IMG/VR virus record: IMGVR_UViG_3300036785_000484
Coordinates: 1-63,688 of that record
Strand: one strand, 5' to 3'
DNA from: a virus
Length of the DNA: 63,688 bases
Positions 25,117 to 53,959 of the stretch are shown here, in pieces. The translations under genes were made by a program, and so were the position numbers. Within the stretch, counting starts at the first letter, position 1. Every line of letters starts with the position of its first letter. The notes under the pieces are model-generated. The model was not told the origin of the DNA and did no database searches. It saw nothing but the letters and a program-made list of their open reading frames with translations.

Positions 25117-25590
25117 GTGACCACCACCGCCACGAAGCGGAAGACGACCGCGCGTAAGCCCGCGAAGGCCCGCGCGTCGAACGGCCAGACCAACGGGCAT
25201 GCGAATGTGCCGGTGGTCCGACCGCCGGAGGAGCACGTCCCCCGGGAGCCAGAAACCGAACCTGCAGCGTCGGCCCCAGCTCCCGGGGTGATCCCGGATC
25301 ACCCGTACGGCGACCGGATGATTCAGGTGTTCTTCCCCTCCGAGGGTGAGCCGATCGTCGTCCCGCACATCTCGACCGTGCAGGTCACGGAGCTGTTCCT
25401 GTGGGAGAACCACCGGCAGGGACTCGACCTTATGCAGCAGTCCTGGCGGTGGATGGACCTGGCCGAGATCCCCGATGTCGTTCAGCGTCAGGTGGTGGCG
25501 TTGGAGAGGACCGACAAGAAAATGTTCTGGGAGCAGTGGTTCGCCGGGTACAGCCCGCCCGCCACCGGGGAGCCACCGGGGGAATCGTGA
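25117..25590 (+). CDS. Tail assembly chaperone, upstream ORF
   Basis: A 157-residue protein with a basic, disordered N terminus (residues 1-65) and a folded C-terminal part (VQVTELFLWENHRQGLDLMQ). It lies directly before the tape measure gene, where siphoviruses encode the G-type chaperone. The next ORF is in the -1 frame and a GGGGGAA run at 25578-25584 could be a slippery site, giving a longer fusion as in lambda G/GT. GTG start. Confidence 0.75.
   Translation: MTTTATKRKTTARKPAKARASNGQTNGHANVPVVRPPEEHVPREPETEPAASAPAPGVIPDHPYGDRMIQVFFPSEGEPIVVPHISTVQVTELFLWENHRQGLDLMQQSWRWMDLAEIPDVVQRQVVALERTDKKMFWEQWFAGYSPPATGEPPGES
25578..25584 (+). promoter_or_regulatory. Possible -1 frameshift site
   Basis: GGGGGAA, read as GGG-GAA in the upstream chaperone frame, lies four bases before its stop. 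A one-base backward slip on GGG keeps perfect P-site pairing and enters the frame of the downstream ORF, which is open across this point. Confidence 0.45.
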
Positions 25591-26012
25591 TGGTGGGGCG
25601 GGTGATCTGCGAGCACCGCCACGCCCTAGTCCGAGACCTGCTCGCGATGGGCTTCCGGGCGCATGACCTGTTCACCCCCAAGCTGTCGTTCTATGAGCTG
25701 ACCTGCATCATCGTCGCCGCCCCACCGACCAGCTCGGTCCGGTACTTCCTCGACGGCGGGTGGAGCAAGGAAGCCCAGCTGCTGGCTAACCAGCAGGAAT
25801 ACATGGCCGGGTTCGCTAAGCTGGCGCACCCCTACGACCGGCCCGGCCAGATCCTCGGCAGCGGCGACCCGGATCAGCGCACCGCCGCGAACCCGTTCGG
25901 GTCGGGCATCTTCAAAGCCGACGCGTACACGTGGGACGAGTTCACCGCCCTGGAACGGGAGCGGTACGCCAACGCCCAGTACACCCCGACCGCCGGGGCC
26001 AGGAGGATCTGA
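25587..26012 (+). CDS. Tail assembly chaperone, downstream ORF
   Basis: A 141-residue ORF read either from GTG 25587/ATG 25590 or by -1 frameshift from the previous ORF. It has helical segments (RALVRDLLAM-type start and a WSKEAQLLANQQEYM helix) and ends one base into the tape measure ATG. The arrangement matches the T-domain of siphovirus tail chaperones, which recruits the tail tube protein. Confidence 0.7.
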   Translation: MMVGRVICEHRHALVRDLLAMGFRAHDLFTPKLSFYELTCIIVAAPPTSSVRYFLDGGWSKEAQLLANQQEYMAGFAKLAHPYDRPGQILGSGDPDQRTAANPFGSGIFKADAYTWDEFTALERERYANAQYTPTAGARRI

Positions 26013-45298: not shown

Positions 45299-45557
45299 GC
45301 AGACCAAACCTAAGATCCCCGTTCCGGTCCCGGCGGAAATCCCGATGCCACGGGATGTTCCCACGCCGACACCGCCGGAGTACGCGACGGGCGCGGTCAA
45401 GCAGGACCCAACCACGCTCGCCGTCGCGGTCCGCACCGATATTCCCGACGTCGACTACAGCCACGACTGGGGTGTGATGACGATTGAGCACGGCGGCCAT
45501 TACGCCACCTGGGATGAGGTGTCGACCTGGGATGACCTGGCCGTCACCGCCCGTTAG
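45291..45557 (+). CDS. Hypothetical protein
   Basis: An 88-residue Pro-rich protein ending in HYATWDEVSTWDDLAVTAR, a segment typical of small actinophage tail-region proteins. It ends the rightward tail operon and overlaps the convergent fibre gene by 4 bp. Confidence 0.65.
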   Translation: MAEQTKPKIPVPVPAEIPMPRDVPTPTPPEYATGAVKQDPTTLAVAVRTDIPDVDYSHDWGVMTIEHGGHYATWDEVSTWDDLAVTAR

Positions 45558-47221
45558 AACAGTGCGAAGAATCCGCTCGGCGACGCCGCCGGGGCGGGCG
45601 GGACGTTGAGGTTGTCCCAGATGGTGTTGTTCACGGTGATAGTGCCGCTGCTGGCGCCGCCGAACACCTCCAGCTCCAGCTGGGTGATATCCAAGATGGT
45701 GTTCGTCCAGGTCATGTAGTTCGTCCAGGTGACACCGTCTGGGCTGGCATCGAAATAAATCACGTTCGCGGTGTGTCGAATACGCAGCCACGCGAAACTG
45801 GTGGAGTTGTACGCGTAGAAGTTCGACACGATGTTGCTGTTGTTGATGAACACGCTGGCGGACATGTACAGGGCGGTGCCGCTGTCGTTTCGAGCCCACT
45901 CCACATAATTCAGGCCATTGGTACTGGTGAGCCGGAAAGGGGCGTACAGGGTGGTGGCAGCCTGGCCGAACTGGACAACCTGGACATAAACCGCCGACTC
46001 GGTGAGGTCATATACGGCAACGGACGTGACGATGCCGCTCCCGGAAGCGGCCGTGAGCAGCACCAGTTGCCCACCGGACACGGAGGCGTTGGAGCCCCAC
46101 CCCGCCCACTTGGAGACGTCCTGGGTCGCGAAGTTGTCGGTGAAGGTGGAGATCTTCGGACCCGGCGGGGTGTTGACGTTGTCCCAGATGGTGTTGGGAA
46201 CAGTAATGGTTCCGGTGGTCTGTCCGCCGAGCAGCGCGACATACATATTGGTCATGCCGGTGGTGCCGCTGACGGTCCAACTGCCGCAGTTCGTCCAGGT
46301 CAGACAGTCCGGGCTGGCATCGAAATAGACCACGCCCCCGGTGTGGCGAAACCGCAGCCAGGCAAAAGTGACGGGATCGTAGGTGTAAAAGGCGCTGACA
46401 TAGACCTGGGCTGCGTTGACGTACACAGAAATTGCGATCGCGTTGCCATTGGTGGGGCTGGGAATATAGCCCCACTCCATATAGTCGCCGTAACCATTGT
46501 TGGGGGAAGCGAGCCGGAACGGCACGTAGTTGCTGGTAGCACACTGGGAGAACTGAAGAGCCCGGACGTAAATAGACGACTCGGTCAGATCGTAAACCGC
46601 GTTACTGGTTATCTGCCCCGGACTAGAGGGGGCAGCGACCAACGACAATTGCTGATTGACTACCGAAGCGTTGGCGCCCCACCCCGTCCATTTCGTGGTG
46701 TCCTGGGTGGCGAAGCTGTCGCTGAAGGTGGACACCTTCGGCGGTGCCGTGTAGGTGACGGTGAGGTCGACCTGGTCGAGTGAGAAGACGGAGCTTGTTG
46801 TGCCGCTGTGGGTGGCTGTCACCAGCACCCGCAGACCATTGAACACCTGCAGGTCGGTCGGTGTGCCCACCGTCAATGTGTCCGTGTGCGCCGACGTACT
46901 GAGTGTCGCGGTCGCCGCCGAGCCGATGGCGGTGCCGGTAGAATCCTGCAGCTGCACCGTAATCGAAGTCCAACGCGAAGTAGTAGCAACCAAACTTCGT
47001 ATCGCGGCGCTGACGCTGCTGATTGTCGCGCCCATCACGGGACCGGTGAACGTGTACCCGCCGATAACGATGGTGCCGACGCCGCCGGAGGCCGCATTGG
47101 TGAAGGTGGCGTAGGTGGCCGGGTTTGTGCCTACCGCGCCGTCCCAGGCGTTGGCGGTGCTGGCCCATGTTGTGCCGCTGGTGGAGACAACACTGGTGCC
47201 GCGCGACTGAGCGGTGGCCAT
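45554..47221 (-). CDS. Tail protein with two lectin-like domains
   Basis: A 555-residue leftward protein. An N-terminal beta domain (residues 1-165) is followed by two homologous domains of about 180 residues (about 168-350 and 355-545), each starting STF-DSFATQD/STFTDNFATQD and ending in TIWDN-N-PP. These resemble concanavalin A/LamG-like sugar-binding folds (FAWLRFRHTGGVVYFDASPD). Likely a receptor-binding component. ATG overlaps the next leftward gene's end by one base. Confidence 0.78.
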   Translation of the reverse strand: MATAQSRGTSVVSTSGTTWASTANAWDGAVGTNPATYATFTNAASGGVGTIVIGGYTFTGPVMGATISSVSAAIRSLVATTSRWTSITVQLQDSTGTAIGSAATATLSTSAHTDTLTVGTPTDLQVFNGLRVLVTATHSGTTSSVFSLDQVDLTVTYTAPPKVSTFSDSFATQDTTKWTGWGANASVVNQQLSLVAAPSSPGQITSNAVYDLTESSIYVRALQFSQCATSNYVPFRLASPNNGYGDYMEWGYIPSPTNGNAIAISVYVNAAQVYVSAFYTYDPVTFAWLRFRHTGGVVYFDASPDCLTWTNCGSWTVSGTTGMTNMYVALLGGQTTGTITVPNTIWDNVNTPPGPKISTFTDNFATQDVSKWAGWGSNASVSGGQLVLLTAASGSGIVTSVAVYDLTESAVYVQVVQFGQAATTLYAPFRLTSTNGLNYVEWARNDSGTALYMSASVFINNSNIVSNFYAYNSTSFAWLRIRHTANVIYFDASPDGVTWTNYMTWTNTILDITQLELEVFGGASSGTITVNNTIWDNLNVPPAPAASPSGFFALF

Positions 47222-47703
47222 CAGTAACTGTTGACCGCGACGCAGACGTACTTGGCGGCGACCTCGTCGTAGATGAAACCCATGATGTGTGTCTTGCCGA
47301 CCGTGGTGGAGCTGATCATCGCGGCGTTATCGGAGCTCTGGAACTGAGTTCCGGGTGCGAAGGTTCTCGACGTGCCGTTGTCCTTCACCCGCACGATCAG
47401 CTTGTAGCCCGCCGCCGGGCCGGTCACCGTGATGCCGGTGAGGTTGACCGCGAGCGCGGTGATGTTCAGCTGGTCGTTGCCGCACGCGGTCAGCGACGGG
47501 GTGGCCGAGGACGCGGTCGACGTGACATTGGGCGCATCGGCCTTGGAAGCCCAGGCGGAGCCGGTGGAGGTGAGCACGAAGCCGGTCGTGCCCGCAGCGG
47601 AGACCCCGGTGCCGCCGTTGGCCATCGGCAGGACGTTGGCGACCTCAGCGGTCAGGTCGATGCTTTCTACGACCTGCCGGTCGGCGACCTTGGTGACAGC
47701 CAT
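47221..47703 (-). CDS. Tail fibre segment protein
   Basis: A 160-residue protein beginning with a tail-fibre-like N terminus that includes VLPMANGGTGVSAAGTTGFV, a motif common in phage fibres just before receptor domains. The rest is a beta-sandwich (LIVRVKDNGTSRTFAPGTQF). Part of the leftward fibre cassette. Confidence 0.75.
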   Translation of the reverse strand: MAVTKVADRQVVESIDLTAEVANVLPMANGGTGVSAAGTTGFVLTSTGSAWASKADAPNVTSTASSATPSLTACGNDQLNITALAVNLTGITVTGPAAGYKLIVRVKDNGTSRTFAPGTQFQSSDNAAMISSTTVGKTHIMGFIYDEVAAKYVCVAVNSY

Positions 47704-47708
47704 AGCTC

Positions 47709-49325
47709 CTACTTGAAGTAACTGACCCTCACTTTGTCGCCCGAGAGCGGCGCGGTGAGGTACGTGATGGTCGCGCCCGAAATGGTGTAATCATTGCCCG
47801 CGCCGGGCTCCTGCTGCAGCCCGTTCAAGTACACCTCCTCGGTCCCCGCGATGGGGGTGTTGGCCAGGGTGAAGGTGACGTTGGAGCCGTTCACCGAGCC
47901 GGACGGCGTTTCTCGGGTGATCCGGTTGGTGGCGTTCAGGTAATCGGCACCGGCGGTGTTGCTGGCCGCGCTGATGGCGGTGCCGTTGCCTTTCAGCAGG
48001 CCGGTGATGCTGGTCTGCACAGTGATGGCCGGGGTGGTGGTGGCTGTGGCCACGGTGCCCGCGAACCCGTTGGCGGAGGCGACCGACACGCTGGTGACCG
48101 TGCCGCCACCGGCACCGGCGTTGGTGATGCTGTACGCGGCGTCCCACGTCCCGGCGGTGGTGCCGATGTTGGTGACGGTGGCCAGCAGCTGCGAGGACGC
48201 GGCCATCGTGATGAGCAGGCTGCCGCCGTTCATGTTGACGGTGATGGTGCCGGTGGAGCGGTTGGTGATCCAGAACGATTGACCGGCGACCAGGGTGGTG
48301 GCGTTGGGCAGTACCAGGGTCTGGTTCAAGGTGCCGGTGAACTGGGTCAGGCCGGGAGATGCGACGGTCAGCGTGGTGGTGGTACCGCCGGTGGCGATGC
48401 TCTGCACCGTCTCGATCAGGCTGTTGAACGCGGCATTGCCGTTGGCGTCGCGGAAAGCGACCGTCGATGCGGTGGACAAGGCCGTCATCGGGACGGCGGT
48501 CGGGGTGGCGGCGGAGCCGGTGGCGTTGGCGATGACGCTGTTGGCGGCCAGGTTCGCCATCTTGGCCAGCGTCACGGCGGCGGCGGCGATGGTGGTGGCG
48601 TTCGACCCGGCAGCGGCGGTGACATCGCCGGTCAGCGCGGCGCGACCCAGCTGGTTACCGGTCTTCGTCAACGACGAGTCGACGGTGACCTCCCCGGCGC
48701 CGGAAAACATCGTCCACTGCATGTTGTTGGTGCCGTAGACGAATCCCGACCCCGACGACGGGACGACGACGGTGTAGCCGCTGCCCGCCGTGATCGACGT
48801 GCCGTTCTCCACGAACACGTAGTCCCCGGCCGGGTTCTCGCTGCCGGACTGCTCGGGGGCGCGGGCCACCGTCAGGTTGGTGGTGTTGGCCGAGCACTTG
48901 TAGAGGCCGTTTGCTGGTTGGCTGGTGTAGTTTCCCGCGCCGCCCGCCGCGCCGGTCGCTGCGGGCGCGTTCATGATCAGGATGTAGTCGTTGACGGCGA
49001 TGGCGACACCGTCGACCGTGGTGCCGCCGATCTGCGTGACGCTGCCCGAGGAGATCGTCAACGTCTCCGTCACGGTCGCGGCCCGCGCCGACGGCTTGGT
49101 GTCCAGGCCCTGCGCCACACTGTCGACGTAGCCCTTGGTGGCCAGCGACGTGGACGAGGTGGGGGTGATACCCGCCTGCTCCCCGGTGAACGCGCGGGTG
49201 CCGTCGGCCTTGATGTAGGAGGTGGCGAGCTGGCCGTCGGTGATCCCCGCCGCAGCGGCCAGCTGGGTGGTGGTGATGGTGGCGGAGCGTATCTGCTTGC
49301 CACCGTCAATCTGCTGCTGGGTCAT
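47709..49325 (-). CDS. Tail fibre protein
   Basis: A 538-residue fibre. The N terminus has LATKGYVDSVAQGLD, an adaptor motif common in tail fibres. The middle is Thr/Ala-rich with repeated ATT/TLAKMANLAANSVIANATGS segments. The C-terminal 90 residues (EEVYLNGLQQEPG, YTISGATITYLTAPLSGDKV) share a fold with the C terminus of the next upstream gene product. ATG preceded by AAAGG. Confidence 0.8.
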   Translation of the reverse strand: MTQQQIDGGKQIRSATITTTQLAAAAGITDGQLATSYIKADGTRAFTGEQAGITPTSSTSLATKGYVDSVAQGLDTKPSARAATVTETLTISSGSVTQIGGTTVDGVAIAVNDYILIMNAPAATGAAGGAGNYTSQPANGLYKCSANTTNLTVARAPEQSGSENPAGDYVFVENGTSITAGSGYTVVVPSSGSGFVYGTNNMQWTMFSGAGEVTVDSSLTKTGNQLGRAALTGDVTAAAGSNATTIAAAAVTLAKMANLAANSVIANATGSAATPTAVPMTALSTASTVAFRDANGNAAFNSLIETVQSIATGGTTTTLTVASPGLTQFTGTLNQTLVLPNATTLVAGQSFWITNRSTGTITVNMNGGSLLITMAASSQLLATVTNIGTTAGTWDAAYSITNAGAGGGTVTSVSVASANGFAGTVATATTTPAITVQTSITGLLKGNGTAISAASNTAGADYLNATNRITRETPSGSVNGSNVTFTLANTPIAGTEEVYLNGLQQEPGAGNDYTISGATITYLTAPLSGDKVRVSYFK

Positions 49326-49336
49326 GGGTCAGCCTT

Positions 49337-49747
49337 TCACTGGACGATGTAGTCAACGCTCAGGTCGTCGGTGGGTTGTGGTGCTACCGAGAACGTAATC
49401 TGGCTGGCGCCGGTCTCGGTGTATCCCGAGCCGCGCGTCTCACGCAGCCCGTTCCGGTAGACCGCCGTGGTATCGGTGCGGTAGGGCTGCGCGGTATCGA
49501 AGTTCGTGTTGACCCCGTTTTTGACGCCCGAAGGTGCTTCTCCGACAACAGGATTGCCGGTACCGGGCGGTCCGGGTTCTCCGGGTGGCCCGGGCGGACC
49601 GGCCGGTCCGCCCCCGGAGACGGTGACCCCGAACACCGGGACATCGACGGTGACCTGCGGGACAGGCACCTGGACGGTGATGTCGAACTGCGGAACCTCG
49701 ACCGTGATCTCGCCGATGGCCTGGTCGGTGACGATCTCATCCGTCAT
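49337..49747 (-). CDS. Collagen-like tail fibre protein
   Basis: A 136-residue protein: an N-terminal strand-rich part with repeated VPV/TVDVP segments, a short collagen-like stretch (GPPGPPGEPGPPG) near residues 53-65, and a C-terminal domain (VYRNGLRETRGSGYTETGAS) similar to the end of the neighbouring 538-residue fibre. Probably a trimeric fibre piece. Confidence 0.78.
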   Translation of the reverse strand: MTDEIVTDQAIGEITVEVPQFDITVQVPVPQVTVDVPVFGVTVSGGGPAGPPGPPGEPGPPGTGNPVVGEAPSGVKNGVNTNFDTAQPYRTDTTAVYRNGLRETRGSGYTETGASQITFSVAPQPTDDLSVDYIVQ

Positions 49748-50205
49748 GGCAGCCGGGTGACGTCAGCGTCCAGCGTGATCGTGCCCTGCACCAGGGTGAT
49801 GACCGGGTCTGGGTTAGTCGGGTCGCTGATCTGGCAGTCCCATACCCCGGTGTAGGTCTGGATCTGCTGGGTGGCGCCGGTCTGGGGGTTGGTGCTTCTC
49901 CGTATGGTCCCGGTCCCGGCCAGCCGGGCGGTGTCGACTGACGATAAAACGACAGCAGCAGGTCCACTGCCGACCGGGGGCGTGATCAGAAACGACGCGT
50001 CGATCGGGGTGGAAGGGTTACGGTCCTTACGTACCTGAGCGTTCCAGTCCATGCCCGTGACGAGCGAGGTCGGCGCGGTGATCTGAATGGTGAGGGTGTC
50101 GCCGCCGTAGGCGGCGATGTCGACCTCCTGAGGCCTGGTGTCGATGGTCTCCGCAGCCGCTACAGGCTCAACTTCCAGACGCTGCTCAGGGGACATAGGG
50201 CACAT
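49744..50205 (-). CDS. Structural beta-sandwich protein
   Basis: A 153-residue protein and first gene of the leftward fibre cassette. It has a beta-sandwich pattern (GGDTLTIQITAPTSLVTGMD, then VWDCQISDP) typical of small phage tail proteins. ATG 50205 or 50196 is likely; upstream extension gives a Cys/Arg-rich implausible N terminus. It is divergent from the lysin gene. Confidence 0.65.
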   Translation of the reverse strand: MCPMSPEQRLEVEPVAAAETIDTRPQEVDIAAYGGDTLTIQITAPTSLVTGMDWNAQVRKDRNPSTPIDASFLITPPVGSGPAAVVLSSVDTARLAGTGTIRRSTNPQTGATQQIQTYTGVWDCQISDPTNPDPVITLVQGTITLDADVTRLP

Positions 50206-50288
50206 GGTCGCAGATTCAGACGGGGCCGGATCATTGACACGCCAGCAATCGACCGGGCAGCACCTGCGCTGTGTGCGACCATCAGGCC
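50206..50288. promoter_or_regulatory. Divergent control region
   Basis: The 83 bp between the leftward fibre cassette and the rightward lysin gene must carry both promoters, unless transcription enters from further away. No clear -10/-35 pair is visible; CATTGACAC at 50232-50240 includes a TTGACA-like hexamer on the plus strand. Confidence 0.35.
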
Positions 50289-52586
50289 GTGTCACATTAC
50301 ACACCCGATGACATCGCGCTGGGTATCATCGCCGAGGGACAGCGGCGCGGGGTCACCCAGAAGGGCATCCAGATCGCCATCTCCACCGGCCTGGTGGAGA
50401 GCAACTTGACGATGTACGCCAACCACGCGGACCCGGAAAGCCTCACCTACCCGCACGACGCCATCGGCTCCGATGCCAACAGTGTCGGGGTGTTCCAGCA
50501 GCGCGACCCGTGGTGGGGCAACTGCTATGAGCGCATGCACGTCCCCGACAGCTCCGGCCTGTTCTTCGACTCGCTGGTGGATCAGCGAATCGGCGGCGAT
50601 GACTACAACACCAACGCCACCACCCCCGGCGGCTGGGCGCAGATGGTGCAGCAGAGCGCATACCCGGACCGCTACGACGAACGGTATCCGGAGGCGTGTG
50701 AGATCTATGACCGCCTGGTAGGTCAAACAACGGGAGGAGCCCCGCTCGTGGGTGAGAAGGTACTGGCCTATGACCACAGCATCGTGCCGCAGGAGACCGG
50801 CTACTGGTGCGGCCCGGCTAGCGCGCAGGTCTGCCTGAACATCCGGGGCATCTATGTCCCCGAATCCCAACTAGCCGAGGAGTGCGGCACCGACCAGGGC
50901 GGCACCGACTATGTGGCGCTGATCGAACGGTGCCTGGACCCGAGACTCCCGGAAGCCAACTACACCAGCGTCGACGCCCCCCACGACCCACCCACCGCCG
51001 ACGAGAAGGACCGGCTGTGGGACGGCATCCTGCGGTCCATCAACTCCGGGTACGGGATCGTGATGAACTGGGTCGCCCCACCGGCGAACTACCCGGTTGG
51101 GATCAAAGGGTCACAGTCCCCCAGCTACGGCGGCGGGACCATCTACCACTACGTCACCTGCGCCGGTTACGACGACAACCCCGCTCAGCGGGCGGTGTGG
51201 ATCGCCGACTCCGGTTTTCAGCCGTTCGGCTACTGGATGAGCTTCGACCAGTGCGCCACCCTGATCCCACCCAAAGCAGCGTGCTACGCCAACCTGCCCC
51301 ACCCCACCTCGGAGGCACCGGTGCCTGACTACGTCCGACTCGACTACGAGCAGAAATGCGGACCCATCGACCCGGCCACCGGGTACGGCACCGGCTGGCC
51401 GCAGCTGGGTGTCAACGAGCAGGGTCAGAACCTGTACCTGGTGGACGCGCTGTCCGACATCCTGCATCTGCTGGAGCAGGGCAAGTCGTCGGTGCACTGG
51501 CGCGCTGAGTACGCCGCGCCCAAGACCCCGCTCGACTACGCGAAGCTGGACTACGAGCAGAACGCCGGACCGGTCGGCGAAGACGGCTACGGGCACGGCT
51601 GGCCGCAGCTGGGTGGCCGTAGCATCACCGACGCGGTCGCGCACATCAAGAACACCCTGGCGGGTGGTGAGCCCCCTTTCCCCCCTAACCCCGGCGGAGG
51701 GGGGTCCGGGCGGTTAGCGATCCTGACGTTCGCCGGGACCTGGGCGGCACCGGGGGTCGGGTTCCCCAGCGATGTGGCTCAGGCCTGCGCCGACGTGGCT
51801 GACGAGGTCCCCGTCCAGGCACCGTGGAGCTTCGGTAAGCCGGTGAGCTACGCCGAATCTGTGAGGATCGGTGTGGACTGGGCGGTGGACTGGACCCTGA
51901 CCCACGCCGACCGACCGGTCATCCTCGGCGGATACAGCCAGGGCGGCGAGGCGGCGGCCCGGGTCCGGATGGAGTTCGAACCCGGCGGTCGGCTCGCGCA
52001 GCTGCACCCCAACTATGTCGCCGGGTACGTGTTCGGGAACCCGTCCCGCCACCTGGAGAAGACGTTCCACGGCGGGCCGCCGACCGACGGTGAAGGGATC
52101 GCCCAGTTCCGGCTGCCGCTGCTCGGGGACGAGTGGTGCGAACTGGTCGACACCTACGACATGTACGCCGGGGTGCCCGCCACCCTGACCGGGGAAATCA
52201 TGCGGGACGTGTACACGCTCTGCACCGAACTGGAGCTCGGCGGCGGTTTCGAGGAGACATTCGTCGCCAACTGCCTCGCGCTGCTCGGCAACCTCGACGG
52301 GGACGCCTACGACGACGTGAAACGCGGCATGTACCGGCACGGCATCGACATCGAGGAAGCGCAGCTGCTCCCCGAGGCCGTGATCAACCCACTCACGGAC
52401 CGGCTGATCTCCGTCAAAGGCATCGCCGCCGCCATCCAGGCGTGCGTGCTGGGGATCCAGTTCATCTGCTGGCAGCCACCCACCGCCCCGCACATAGAAT
52501 ATGGAATCAGAGAAGTTTTCCCGGGCCAAACCTACGTTCAGCTGGCCATACAGCACGTACATCATTGGGCCGCAGTGCGGGTGTAG
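50289..52586 (+). CDS. Fused endolysin: LysA-type domains plus LysB esterase
   Basis: A 765-residue multidomain lysis enzyme. Residues 1-145: lysozyme/transglycosylase-like, candidate catalytic Glu 37 (STGLVESNL) and GVFQQR near 67. Residues about 158-335: C39-like cysteine peptidase with Cys 174 (GYWCGPAS), His 287 (IYHYVT) and Asp 308. Residues 347-375 and 416-445: two copies of a YVRLDYEQ to GWPQLG wall-binding-like motif. A Gly/Pro linker leads to a cutinase-like LysB esterase (474-765): nucleophile Ser 550 in GGYSQGG, Asp about 621-624, His 735 (APHIEYG). LysB enzymes cut mycolyl-arabinogalactan ester bonds. GTG 50289; GTG 50271 would add six residues. Confidence 0.9.
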   Translation: MSHYTPDDIALGIIAEGQRRGVTQKGIQIAISTGLVESNLTMYANHADPESLTYPHDAIGSDANSVGVFQQRDPWWGNCYERMHVPDSSGLFFDSLVDQRIGGDDYNTNATTPGGWAQMVQQSAYPDRYDERYPEACEIYDRLVGQTTGGAPLVGEKVLAYDHSIVPQETGYWCGPASAQVCLNIRGIYVPESQLAEECGTDQGGTDYVALIERCLDPRLPEANYTSVDAPHDPPTADEKDRLWDGILRSINSGYGIVMNWVAPPANYPVGIKGSQSPSYGGGTIYHYVTCAGYDDNPAQRAVWIADSGFQPFGYWMSFDQCATLIPPKAACYANLPHPTSEAPVPDYVRLDYEQKCGPIDPATGYGTGWPQLGVNEQGQNLYLVDALSDILHLLEQGKSSVHWRAEYAAPKTPLDYAKLDYEQNAGPVGEDGYGHGWPQLGGRSITDAVAHIKNTLAGGEPPFPPNPGGGGSGRLAILTFAGTWAAPGVGFPSDVAQACADVADEVPVQAPWSFGKPVSYAESVRIGVDWAVDWTLTHADRPVILGGYSQGGEAAARVRMEFEPGGRLAQLHPNYVAGYVFGNPSRHLEKTFHGGPPTDGEGIAQFRLPLLGDEWCELVDTYDMYAGVPATLTGEIMRDVYTLCTELELGGGFEETFVANCLALLGNLDGDAYDDVKRGMYRHGIDIEEAQLLPEAVINPLTDRLISVKGIAAAIQACVLGIQFICWQPPTAPHIEYGIREVFPGQTYVQLAIQHVHHWAAVRV

Positions 52587-52596
52587 TATCACATTT
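52584..52596 (+). promoter_or_regulatory. -10 box for leaderless HNH gene
   Basis: TAGTAT at 52584-52589 lies 7 nt before GTG 52597 and overlaps the lysin stop codon. The arrangement parallels that before the other NUMOD4-HNH gene at 33832. Confidence 0.45.
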
Positions 52597-53169
52597 GTGT
52601 CAGCTGAGGAATGGCGGTCGGTAGTCGGCTGGGAGGACCTGTACGAAGTCAGCTCACTTGGCCGGGTACGTGTTCTCGACAGGATCATCCAACGGCATGG
52701 TCGGCCACAGAAGCATGGCGGGAATCTCGGCGGCAGCTATGTGAAGCGCGGTCATCTGCTCTCGCCATATAGGACACCGCCGATGGACTACCTCACCGTG
52801 AACTTGGAGCGGGGGGATGAAAAGCGCCGCGTGCGCATTCACACGCTGGTGATCGAAGCGTTTGTCGGGCCACGGCCAGGCGGCCTTGAGGCGTGTCACG
52901 GTCCCGGCGGCTCAGACGATAACAGCCGTCCGAATCTCAGATGGGACACCAGACGCGAGAATATGTTGGACGAGGTACGTCACGGCACCCACCACAACGC
53001 CGTGAAGACGCACTGCAAGCGCAACCATGAGTTCACGCCCGAGAACACCAGGATCAATCCCACCAGCGGGTCGCGCCAATGTCGGCGCTGTGTCTACGAG
53101 GGGAATAAGGCGCGTATCTTGGCTAAGGCGTCGGCGGTTCTGCCGGGGGTGGCGGCGGAGCCGGGGTGA
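52597..53169 (+). CDS. NUMOD4-HNH homing endonuclease
   Basis: A 190-residue homing endonuclease with the same plan as the one at 33832: NUMOD4 (EEWRSVVGWEDLYEVSSLGR) then HNH (HTLVIEAFVG, EACHGPGGSDDNSRPNLRWD, N-x3-D-VRHG) and a Cys-rich C terminus (CKRNHEFT, CRRC). The frame is open back to 52501 inside the lysin gene, but GTG 52597 matches the domain start and the -10 box. Its 3' end overlaps the convergent secreted-protein gene by 47 bp, so it was probably inserted here. Confidence 0.87.
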   Translation: MSAEEWRSVVGWEDLYEVSSLGRVRVLDRIIQRHGRPQKHGGNLGGSYVKRGHLLSPYRTPPMDYLTVNLERGDEKRRVRIHTLVIEAFVGPRPGGLEACHGPGGSDDNSRPNLRWDTRRENMLDEVRHGTHHNAVKTHCKRNHEFTPENTRINPTSGSRQCRRCVYEGNKARILAKASAVLPGVAAEPG

Positions 53170-53590
53170 GACCCGGCGGTGGCCATTGATCCTGAGGGGT
53201 CGGACCCGTTATCGCCCACGGCACACCCCACCCATCCGGGATCACATCGGGGTCGGGACGGCCAGGGTGATCCGGCTGGCCGGGGAACACCCGCCAGCAC
53301 TGCCACATCTGCGCGATGGGGATGAACCCGCCCCATTCACAGTGAATGTGGCCCTCGATGGTGAAATTGAAGTCGCAGTAGCCGCCACCGGCGCCGAGGA
53401 CGTTGACGGCGGTCCCCACACCGGGGCAGAGCAGGAGTGCCGCCGCACCGGGAGTCAGGCCGGGGCTGATGCCCGGCTCACCGCCGAGACCGTTCCCGCT
53501 ACCTCCCGGGTCACCCGACGCAGTCGGGGCAGGCAGCAGGATGACCAGTCCAGCCAGGGCCGCGAAGGCAAGCCTGGCTGGACTGGTCAT
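53123..53590 (-). CDS. Secreted protein with signal peptide
   Basis: A 155-residue leftward protein with a Sec-type signal: short basic start, hydrophobic LAFAALAGLVILLPA and a likely cut after ASG/A near residue 26. The mature part has paired cysteines (CPGVGTAVNVLGAGGGYCDF, then HIHCEWGG) and a Pro-rich tail. Similar small exported proteins with an HxHCE motif occur in mycobacteria and their phages. Role unknown, perhaps envelope modification or superinfection exclusion. Confidence 0.75.
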   Translation of the reverse strand: MTSPARLAFAALAGLVILLPAPTASGDPGGSGNGLGGEPGISPGLTPGAAALLLCPGVGTAVNVLGAGGGYCDFNFTIEGHIHCEWGGFIPIAQMWQCWRVFPGQPDHPGRPDPDVIPDGWGVPWAITGPTPQDQWPPPGLTPAPPPPPAEPPTP

Positions 53591-53650: not shown

Positions 53651-53959
53651 ATGACCGAACCCGAGCCCAAGCCGCCGTTGCTGCCCCGCTGGTTCGCCAC
53701 CAAGGGACCACAACCCGGCTGGCTGGCCGAGTACTGGTCGATGATCCTGGCGGTGCTCAGCGCGGTGGTGGTGCTGCTCAACACCCTCGTCACCGTGCAG
53801 GGGATGAGCGTCACGACCGAGAAATGGGTGAACGCCGTGGTGGCGTGGGTCGCGGCGGGCGCGCTGTTCCTGCAGAGCCGGTATAAGAACGTGGGCGCTA
53901 TCGCGAAGTGGCGCGCCCAGGTGCGTGCCGAGGAGGCCGAGAAGCCGACGGAGGGCTAG
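53651..53959 (+). CDS. Holin (putative)
   Basis: A 102-residue protein with two predicted membrane helices, about 29-50 (SMILAVLSAVVVLLNTLVTV) and 61-79 (WVNAVVAWVAAGALFLQSRY), and a charged C-terminal tail. Size, two-helix layout and position near the endolysin fit a holin that releases the lysin. Longer in-frame starts overlap the secreted-protein gene antisense and are rejected. Confidence 0.75.
   Translation: MTEPEPKPPLLPRWFATKGPQPGWLAEYWSMILAVLSAVVVLLNTLVTVQGMSVTTEKWVNAVVAWVAAGALFLQSRYKNVGAIAKWRAQVRAEEAEKPTEG

Follow-up and report, generated by a model that had tools for sequence, protein, structure and literature searches.

Organization of the lysis locus

The window, by which we mean the whole 63,688-nucleotide stretch of viral DNA analyzed here, carries on its plus strand a lysis gene, lysAB, whose 765 codons run uninterrupted from a GTG at 50289 to a TAG at 52586. 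Its predicted product is a single LysA-LysB protein. Directly 3' of it, between the lysin and a holin candidate, lies an HNH endonuclease gene, which is a neighbor and not part of the mechanism discussed below.

50289..52586 (+), lysAB, in-frame LysA-LysB fusion ORF of 765 aa; GTG start and open frame, the equivalent GTG starting the fusion of contig L001
50298..50744 (+), muramidase/lysozyme-like N-terminal domain, residues 4-152; phrog_700 (8e-42), PDB 8b2h/8b2e muramidases
50754..51326 (+), C39-like cysteine peptidase of LysA, residues 156-346; phrog_1519 (1.6e-107), Pfam PF13529
51327..51662 (+), two presumed wall-binding repeats (DYxxLDYEQ...GWPQLG...); motifs at residues 347-375 and 416-443
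51675..51719 (+), Pro/Gly linker from LysA to LysB in the 0 frame; translation, and a low-confidence (flexible) stretch at residues 459-472 of the full-length model
51711..52583 (+), LysB-type mycolyl-arabinogalactan esterase domain, residues 475-765; phrog_102, D29 LysB fold, presumed triad
52594..53169 (+), HNH endonuclease gene; phrog_1492 (3e-67), start placed by eye
53651..53959 (+), holin candidate of 102 aa with two hydrophobic stretches, recognized by eye; no meaningful PHROG or Pfam match

On the opposite strand to the lysis genes, an ORF at 53123-53590 (-) codes for a possibly secreted protein whose N-terminus resembles a signal peptide and whose body is rich in Cys and Pro; no Pfam or PHROG match was found for it. 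A tail-like gene block on the minus strand (45554-50304), one gene of which has a collagen-like GPPGPPG stretch, is arranged head-to-head with lysAB; this region is conserved in L001 at 88-96% DNA identity.

The LysA part combines predicted peptidoglycan hydrolase domains with the presumed wall-binding repeats, a composition that fits an endolysin. Its N-terminal domain matches the muramidase 8b2h (3.6e-23) and is up to 58% identical to LysA of Mycobacterium phages; the full-length structure model is of low confidence over residues 1-153, and we make no structural claim for that domain. The following C39 domain (Pfam C39_2, PF13529, residues 165-308, 3.6e-14) reaches 69% identity to mycobacteriophage LysA. 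The two repeats, whose GWPQLG motifs begin at residues 369 and 437, gave no tblastn match against cultured phages, and may bind the wall. Across related viruses the N-terminal module is swapped while the junction with LysB is unchanged: Pfam GH19 is found in L001 and L059, and a muramidase-like module in the window and L002/L062. The exchanged GH19-like, muramidase-like and other modules (e.g., L001:5380-6080, L005:5311-6000, L059:4406-5060) all precede a part that is kept from C39 to LysB.

The C-terminal part matches phrog_102 (2.3e-63, residues 475-762), and when modeled alone from 12 sequences (mean pLDDT 70.8) its best PDB match is the D29 lysin B 3hc7 (E 2.8e-7, TM 0.53-0.60), pointing to an alpha/beta hydrolase fold like that of D29 LysB. 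S76, D150 and H261 of the domain (Ser550, Asp624 and His735 of the protein) are invariant across 16 LysBs and form the presumed triad, the Asp and His being assigned by position; the GGYSQGG motif singled out at the outset lies at residues 547-553. Hydrolysis of mycolyl-arabinogalactan is the predicted activity. The Pfam cutinase model fell below threshold for the window, and 6 of 12 clade members match it weakly. The domain matches 1,070 Mycobacterium/Mycolicibacterium phage records, most of them named lysin B, the closest cultured LysB being that of CELFI (42%). As the cultured relatives of this LysB all come from Mycobacterium/Mycolicibacterium phages, they suggest a mycobacterial host.

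The initial annotation, made from the bare sequence, had read the locus as LysA and LysB in one continuous frame joined by a Gly/Pro linker. This reading is borne out by the open 765 codons with domains on both sides and by the linker seen in the 0 frame; Pfam, PHROG and PDB matches agree with its calls of a lysozyme-like domain, a C39-like peptidase, two repeats and a LysB esterase. Of the two doubts that it raised, the suspicion that the esterase part might be of another enzyme class is answered by the phrog_102 match and the D29 LysB fold. The other, a sequencing error hiding a stop in the linker, finds no support: L001, a different contig with 96% identity in C39, 95% in LysB and 93% in DNA, has linker substitutions and 3 extra bases, and such an error is unlikely because the frame is kept in spite of both. 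A more distant lineage, L005 (about 60% identical), is also fused. No internal start for LysB, as an in-frame ATG, GTG or TTG, occurs in the window between 51600 and 51774; the first in-frame start-type codon is the GTG at 51774, within the LysB core.

A slippery heptamer within the fusion

The most interesting part of the locus, overlooked in the initial annotation, is a -1 slippery site at the start of the linker, with a further element just upstream of it.

51662..51670 (+), Shine-Dalgarno-like GGGTGGTGA, just 5' of the slippery site; duplex with the 16S 3' end
51674..51680 (+), -1 slippery heptamer C_CCT_TTC, in register with the LysA codons; heptamers of this class stand in 11 of 12 lineages
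51686..51688 (+), TAA met on a -1 slip, giving a predicted LysA-only product of 466 aa that ends ...GGEPPFPP; frame reading, L001 having TGA at the same place

Both the window and L001 thus have a slippery site in the long frame and a near stop in the -1 frame, which past the heptamer runs for four codons to TAA (window) or TGA (L001). A slip in the window would yield LysA alone, in the manner of dnaX. It had been supposed that the fusion would force equal amounts of the two enzymes, which is not secure, as the heptamer and the -1 TAA may also yield a LysA-only form; for the companion suggestion, that the product is cut after synthesis, we found nothing in favor, and frameshifting alone can give both forms.

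LysA and LysB of most related viruses are split at the same site

A search of IMG/VR with a LysB-domain profile and two DNA patterns recovered twelve distinct lineages including the window, and none beyond these. All are metagenomic and related to one another, so that the conservation counts given below are not independent. Among the lysis loci of these relatives, whose comparison had been proposed with the original reading, those of L001 and L005 share the fusion with the window; in the other nine lineages LysA and LysB occupy overlapping frames, with LysB in -1 relative to LysA. The junction of all nine is C_CCT_TTA or C_CCT_TTC, in register with the LysA codons and following the X_XXY_YYZ pattern of -1 slippery heptamers. 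The LysB frame opens in 6/9 just one codon ahead of the site, at the TGA of GGTGAGCCCCCTTT (TGA GCC CCC TTT), and in 7/9 there is no ATG, GTG or TTG from its opening to the conserved LysB core, the two others having a possible start (GTG in L060, TTG in L056). In-frame starts do lie upstream of the core in the controls, namely 17 LysA/LysB pairs of other phages plus 11 further loci with a separate lysB. Given the heptamer in 9/9 and the absence of starts in 7/9, LysB of the split lineages is most likely made only as a frameshifted LysA-LysB fusion. Translated in -1 beyond the site, each of them gives a Pro/Gly-rich linker that starts with PF and resembles those of the true fusions; their 0-frame tails share no sequence and range in length from 6 to 49 codons.

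In a codon alignment of LysA ends, the CCC and CCT codons are identical in 11/11 lineages with the site; these two alone are perfect among 40 conserved four-fold columns, against a median codon identity of 0.36. CCT is the rarest Pro codon elsewhere in the clade's genes (26/269), and in the six lineages with TTA at the site this codon accounts for 18/263 of all Leu codons. Among 86,706 codon positions (ORFs of at least 200 codons in the clade loci) in-phase C_CCT_TTN occurs 15 times, 10 of them at this junction; the probability of nine such sites by chance would be about 1e-22 for independent lineages, and is a rough guide as the lineages are related. The pattern GGTGAGCCCCCTTTNCNG is found in only 4 stretches in IMG/VR, all at the LysA-LysB junction. 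By these measures, the site appears conserved beyond coding need.

Beyond the clade, GTDB genome contigs yielded only two Mycobacterium loci, at about 40% and without the slippery site. No single locus of a cultured phage matches as much as 80% of the fusion, and the two closest that we checked, Boilgate and CELFI, have LysA and LysB in separate genes.

In L058, an HNH endonuclease ORF (L058:5238-5932) splits lysA between its two GWPQLG repeats; no Rfam intron was found in the interrupted gene. From there a short ORF, which starts at an ATG of its own (5804) preceded by GGAGG and contains a single GWPQLG repeat, leads through CCCTTTA into LysB.

Possible stimulators

In the window, GGGTGGTGA forms a more stable duplex with the 3' end of 16S rRNA than does any codon-spaced segment of the 870 nt before it, and in both the window and L001 the element is the strongest of the whole gene. 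An equivalent stretch (GGnGGTGA in many) lies about 3 nt from the site. In 8/11 lineages it pairs better than nearly all codon-spaced segments of its own gene (2.1st percentile or lower), and it is weak in L055, L064 and L056; no start codon stands at a suitable distance from it. In dnaX the corresponding spacing is roughly 10 nt, and as it is shorter here the effect of the element is uncertain. No conserved RNA structure was found in the 70 nt 3' of the site, which are GC-rich and, as pseudoknot-free folds, no stabler than shuffled sequences (z -1.15 to +1.41). Such 3' structures are not obligatory for -1 frameshifting in bacteria. In E. coli, C_CC.U_UU.C supports high-level -1 shifting and C_CC.U_UU.A/U/G more than 0.10% without stimulators (PMC4066793).

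Alternative explanations of the junction

For the window on its own, it is an even call whether lysAB is simply a constitutive fusion with the CCCTTT of its linker a non-functional remnant. The 0 frame is open throughout there and in L001, and L005 demonstrates a fusion without the site, having CCG TTC in place of CCT TTC. The retention of site and -1 stop among fused lineages concerns just two close sequences, the window and L001, in which the site may not have decayed yet and may be kept through inertia from a recent conversion; L005 lost it after fusing. However, both the window and L001 keep the heptamer together with a -1 stop at the same place, by different codons (TAA, TGA), and both have their strongest Shine-Dalgarno-like element there; moreover, a simple fusion accounts for the window but not for the nine split relatives.

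We regard it as improbable that the split lineages dispense with frameshifting and translate LysB on its own, whether through re-initiation or with a non-standard start codon. The pairs of lysA and lysB in mycobacteriophages normally have overlapping starts, and the GTG of L060 and TTG of L056 adjoin the LysB core, with CTG codons in L055 and L065; but the seven lineages lacking ATG, GTG or TTG for LysB are at odds with this, as are L059, L062 and L058, where the LysA frame runs on for 35-49 codons after the site and ends within the LysB linker and core or beyond them; re-initiation at such a stop would cut LysB. Separate translation would also leave the invariant CCC CCT TTN and the in-frame fusions unexplained. 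Slippage of RNA polymerase, rather than of the ribosome, on what is after all a C5T3 or C6T3 run is a still poorer candidate for joining the frames: polymerase slippage normally requires longer homopolymers, and what is conserved is an X_XXY_YYZ heptamer in codon phase, the base that follows TTT varying freely. Least credible of all is that the frame differences are sequencing or assembly errors, even though the C and G runs of the linker are error-prone and the data all metagenomic, as nine lineages all have LysB in -1 at this one motif, the frame of the window agrees with that of L001 across differing bases and a 3-base indel, and independent assemblies have identical junctions (L007/L042, 99.98% over 8,944 nt without gaps; L038/L057, 100% over 4,232 nt).

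Proposed mechanism and its evolution

To return to ribosomal frameshifting, we consider it very probable that the uncultured phages of this clade express LysA-LysB as a translational fusion, mostly by -1 programmed ribosomal frameshifting, which would be the commonest and probably ancestral arrangement. The LysA frame would be read through C_CCU_UUA or C_CCU_UUC to a stop 6-49 codons on, giving LysA alone, while some ribosomes would slip back by one base to CCC UUU and enter the LysB frame, which in most lineages lacks a start codon of its own, giving LysA-linker-LysB. For the window and L001 we propose that an indel on the 3' side of the heptamer moved LysB into the 0 frame, making the fusion the direct product and LysA alone the presumed outcome of a -1 slip. 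L005 would have fused independently, likewise through an indel: it retains the protein motif PPF, encoded as CCA CCG TTC, with the slippery site gone. In the LysB tree, the window and L001 group with the split L055 (95/91), and L005 with the split L064 (96/93). As the two fused groups each pair with a different split lineage, the simplest reading of the tree is a frameshifting ancestor followed by two independent changes to in-frame fusion.

The likely purpose would be to provide LysB at a fixed, sub-stoichiometric level, borne by the presumed wall-binding repeats of LysA. The LysBs of the clade are apparently without a peptidoglycan-binding N-terminus of their own, and fusion to the LysA repeats would hold them at the wall, an idea supported by L058, which retains the path from a repeat-containing ORF via CCCTTTA to LysB although an HNH gene has cut it off from the catalytic LysA part. 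More tentatively, and with the balance slightly against it, we propose that the slippery site sets the ratio of LysA to wall-anchored LysA-LysB, with LysB never expressed independently and with the logic inverted, dnaX-style, in the lineage of the window.

If this holds, it would be, as far as we found, the first case of frameshift control over an attack on the mycolate outer layer, and a new way of setting the order and dose of envelope breakdown, via a rationed LysB extension of LysA. It would explain why gene callers would annotate phages of the clade without lysB or with a truncated one. The apparent replacement, twice, of the frameshift by plain fusion lets one ask what the frameshift served, and a natural two-layer enzyme offers a design lead for lysins against mycobacteria.

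Comparison with known systems

Published descriptions have LysA and LysB, each directed at a different layer of the envelope, encoded separately; in the open-licence literature, we found neither a natural LysA-LysB fusion nor a frameshift between the two in mycobacteriophages. The cassettes of cluster K phages, Ms6 and D29 resemble the clade in the order of a C39-type LysA followed by a LysB esterase, and D29 in the LysB fold, but have separate genes with their own starts where the clade has one ORF or a slippery-site junction. Overlapping genes, an in-phase X_XXY_YYZ site, a short 0-frame product and a longer -1 fusion are shared with the phage tail assembly chaperones (gpG/gpGT); in contrast to these, the site in the clade concerns lysis enzymes, and both predicted products are envelope-acting enzymes. 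The window has its own presumed chaperone region (25117-25930), with two overlapping frames before the tape measure gene; no XXXYYYN heptamer occurs in it between 25301 and 25960.

A parallel to the window and L001 is the E. coli dnaX gene (tau/gamma), with a long 0 frame, a -1 stop within a few codons and a Shine-Dalgarno-like element upstream, though in place of A_AAA_AAG they have C_CCU_UUC or C_CCU_UUU, with a shorter spacing from that element and no clear 3' stem-loop. A lactococcal phage lysin described in 1994 is reportedly a peptidoglycan lysin only, with no mycolyl esterase, its 'lysA/lysB' being unrelated names. Like the lysins of the clade, it is made from overlapping frames; PMC10885494 cites it as a frameshift case. 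Two products of one lysin gene, as proposed for the clade, are made in Ms6, by an embedded second endolysin from an internal start (PMC3111421, PMC8309991). The LysB of Ms6, which needs a wall-binding part, has its own N-terminal peptidoglycan-binding domain (PMC8309991), whereas the LysBs of the clade would borrow the repeats of LysA through fusion.
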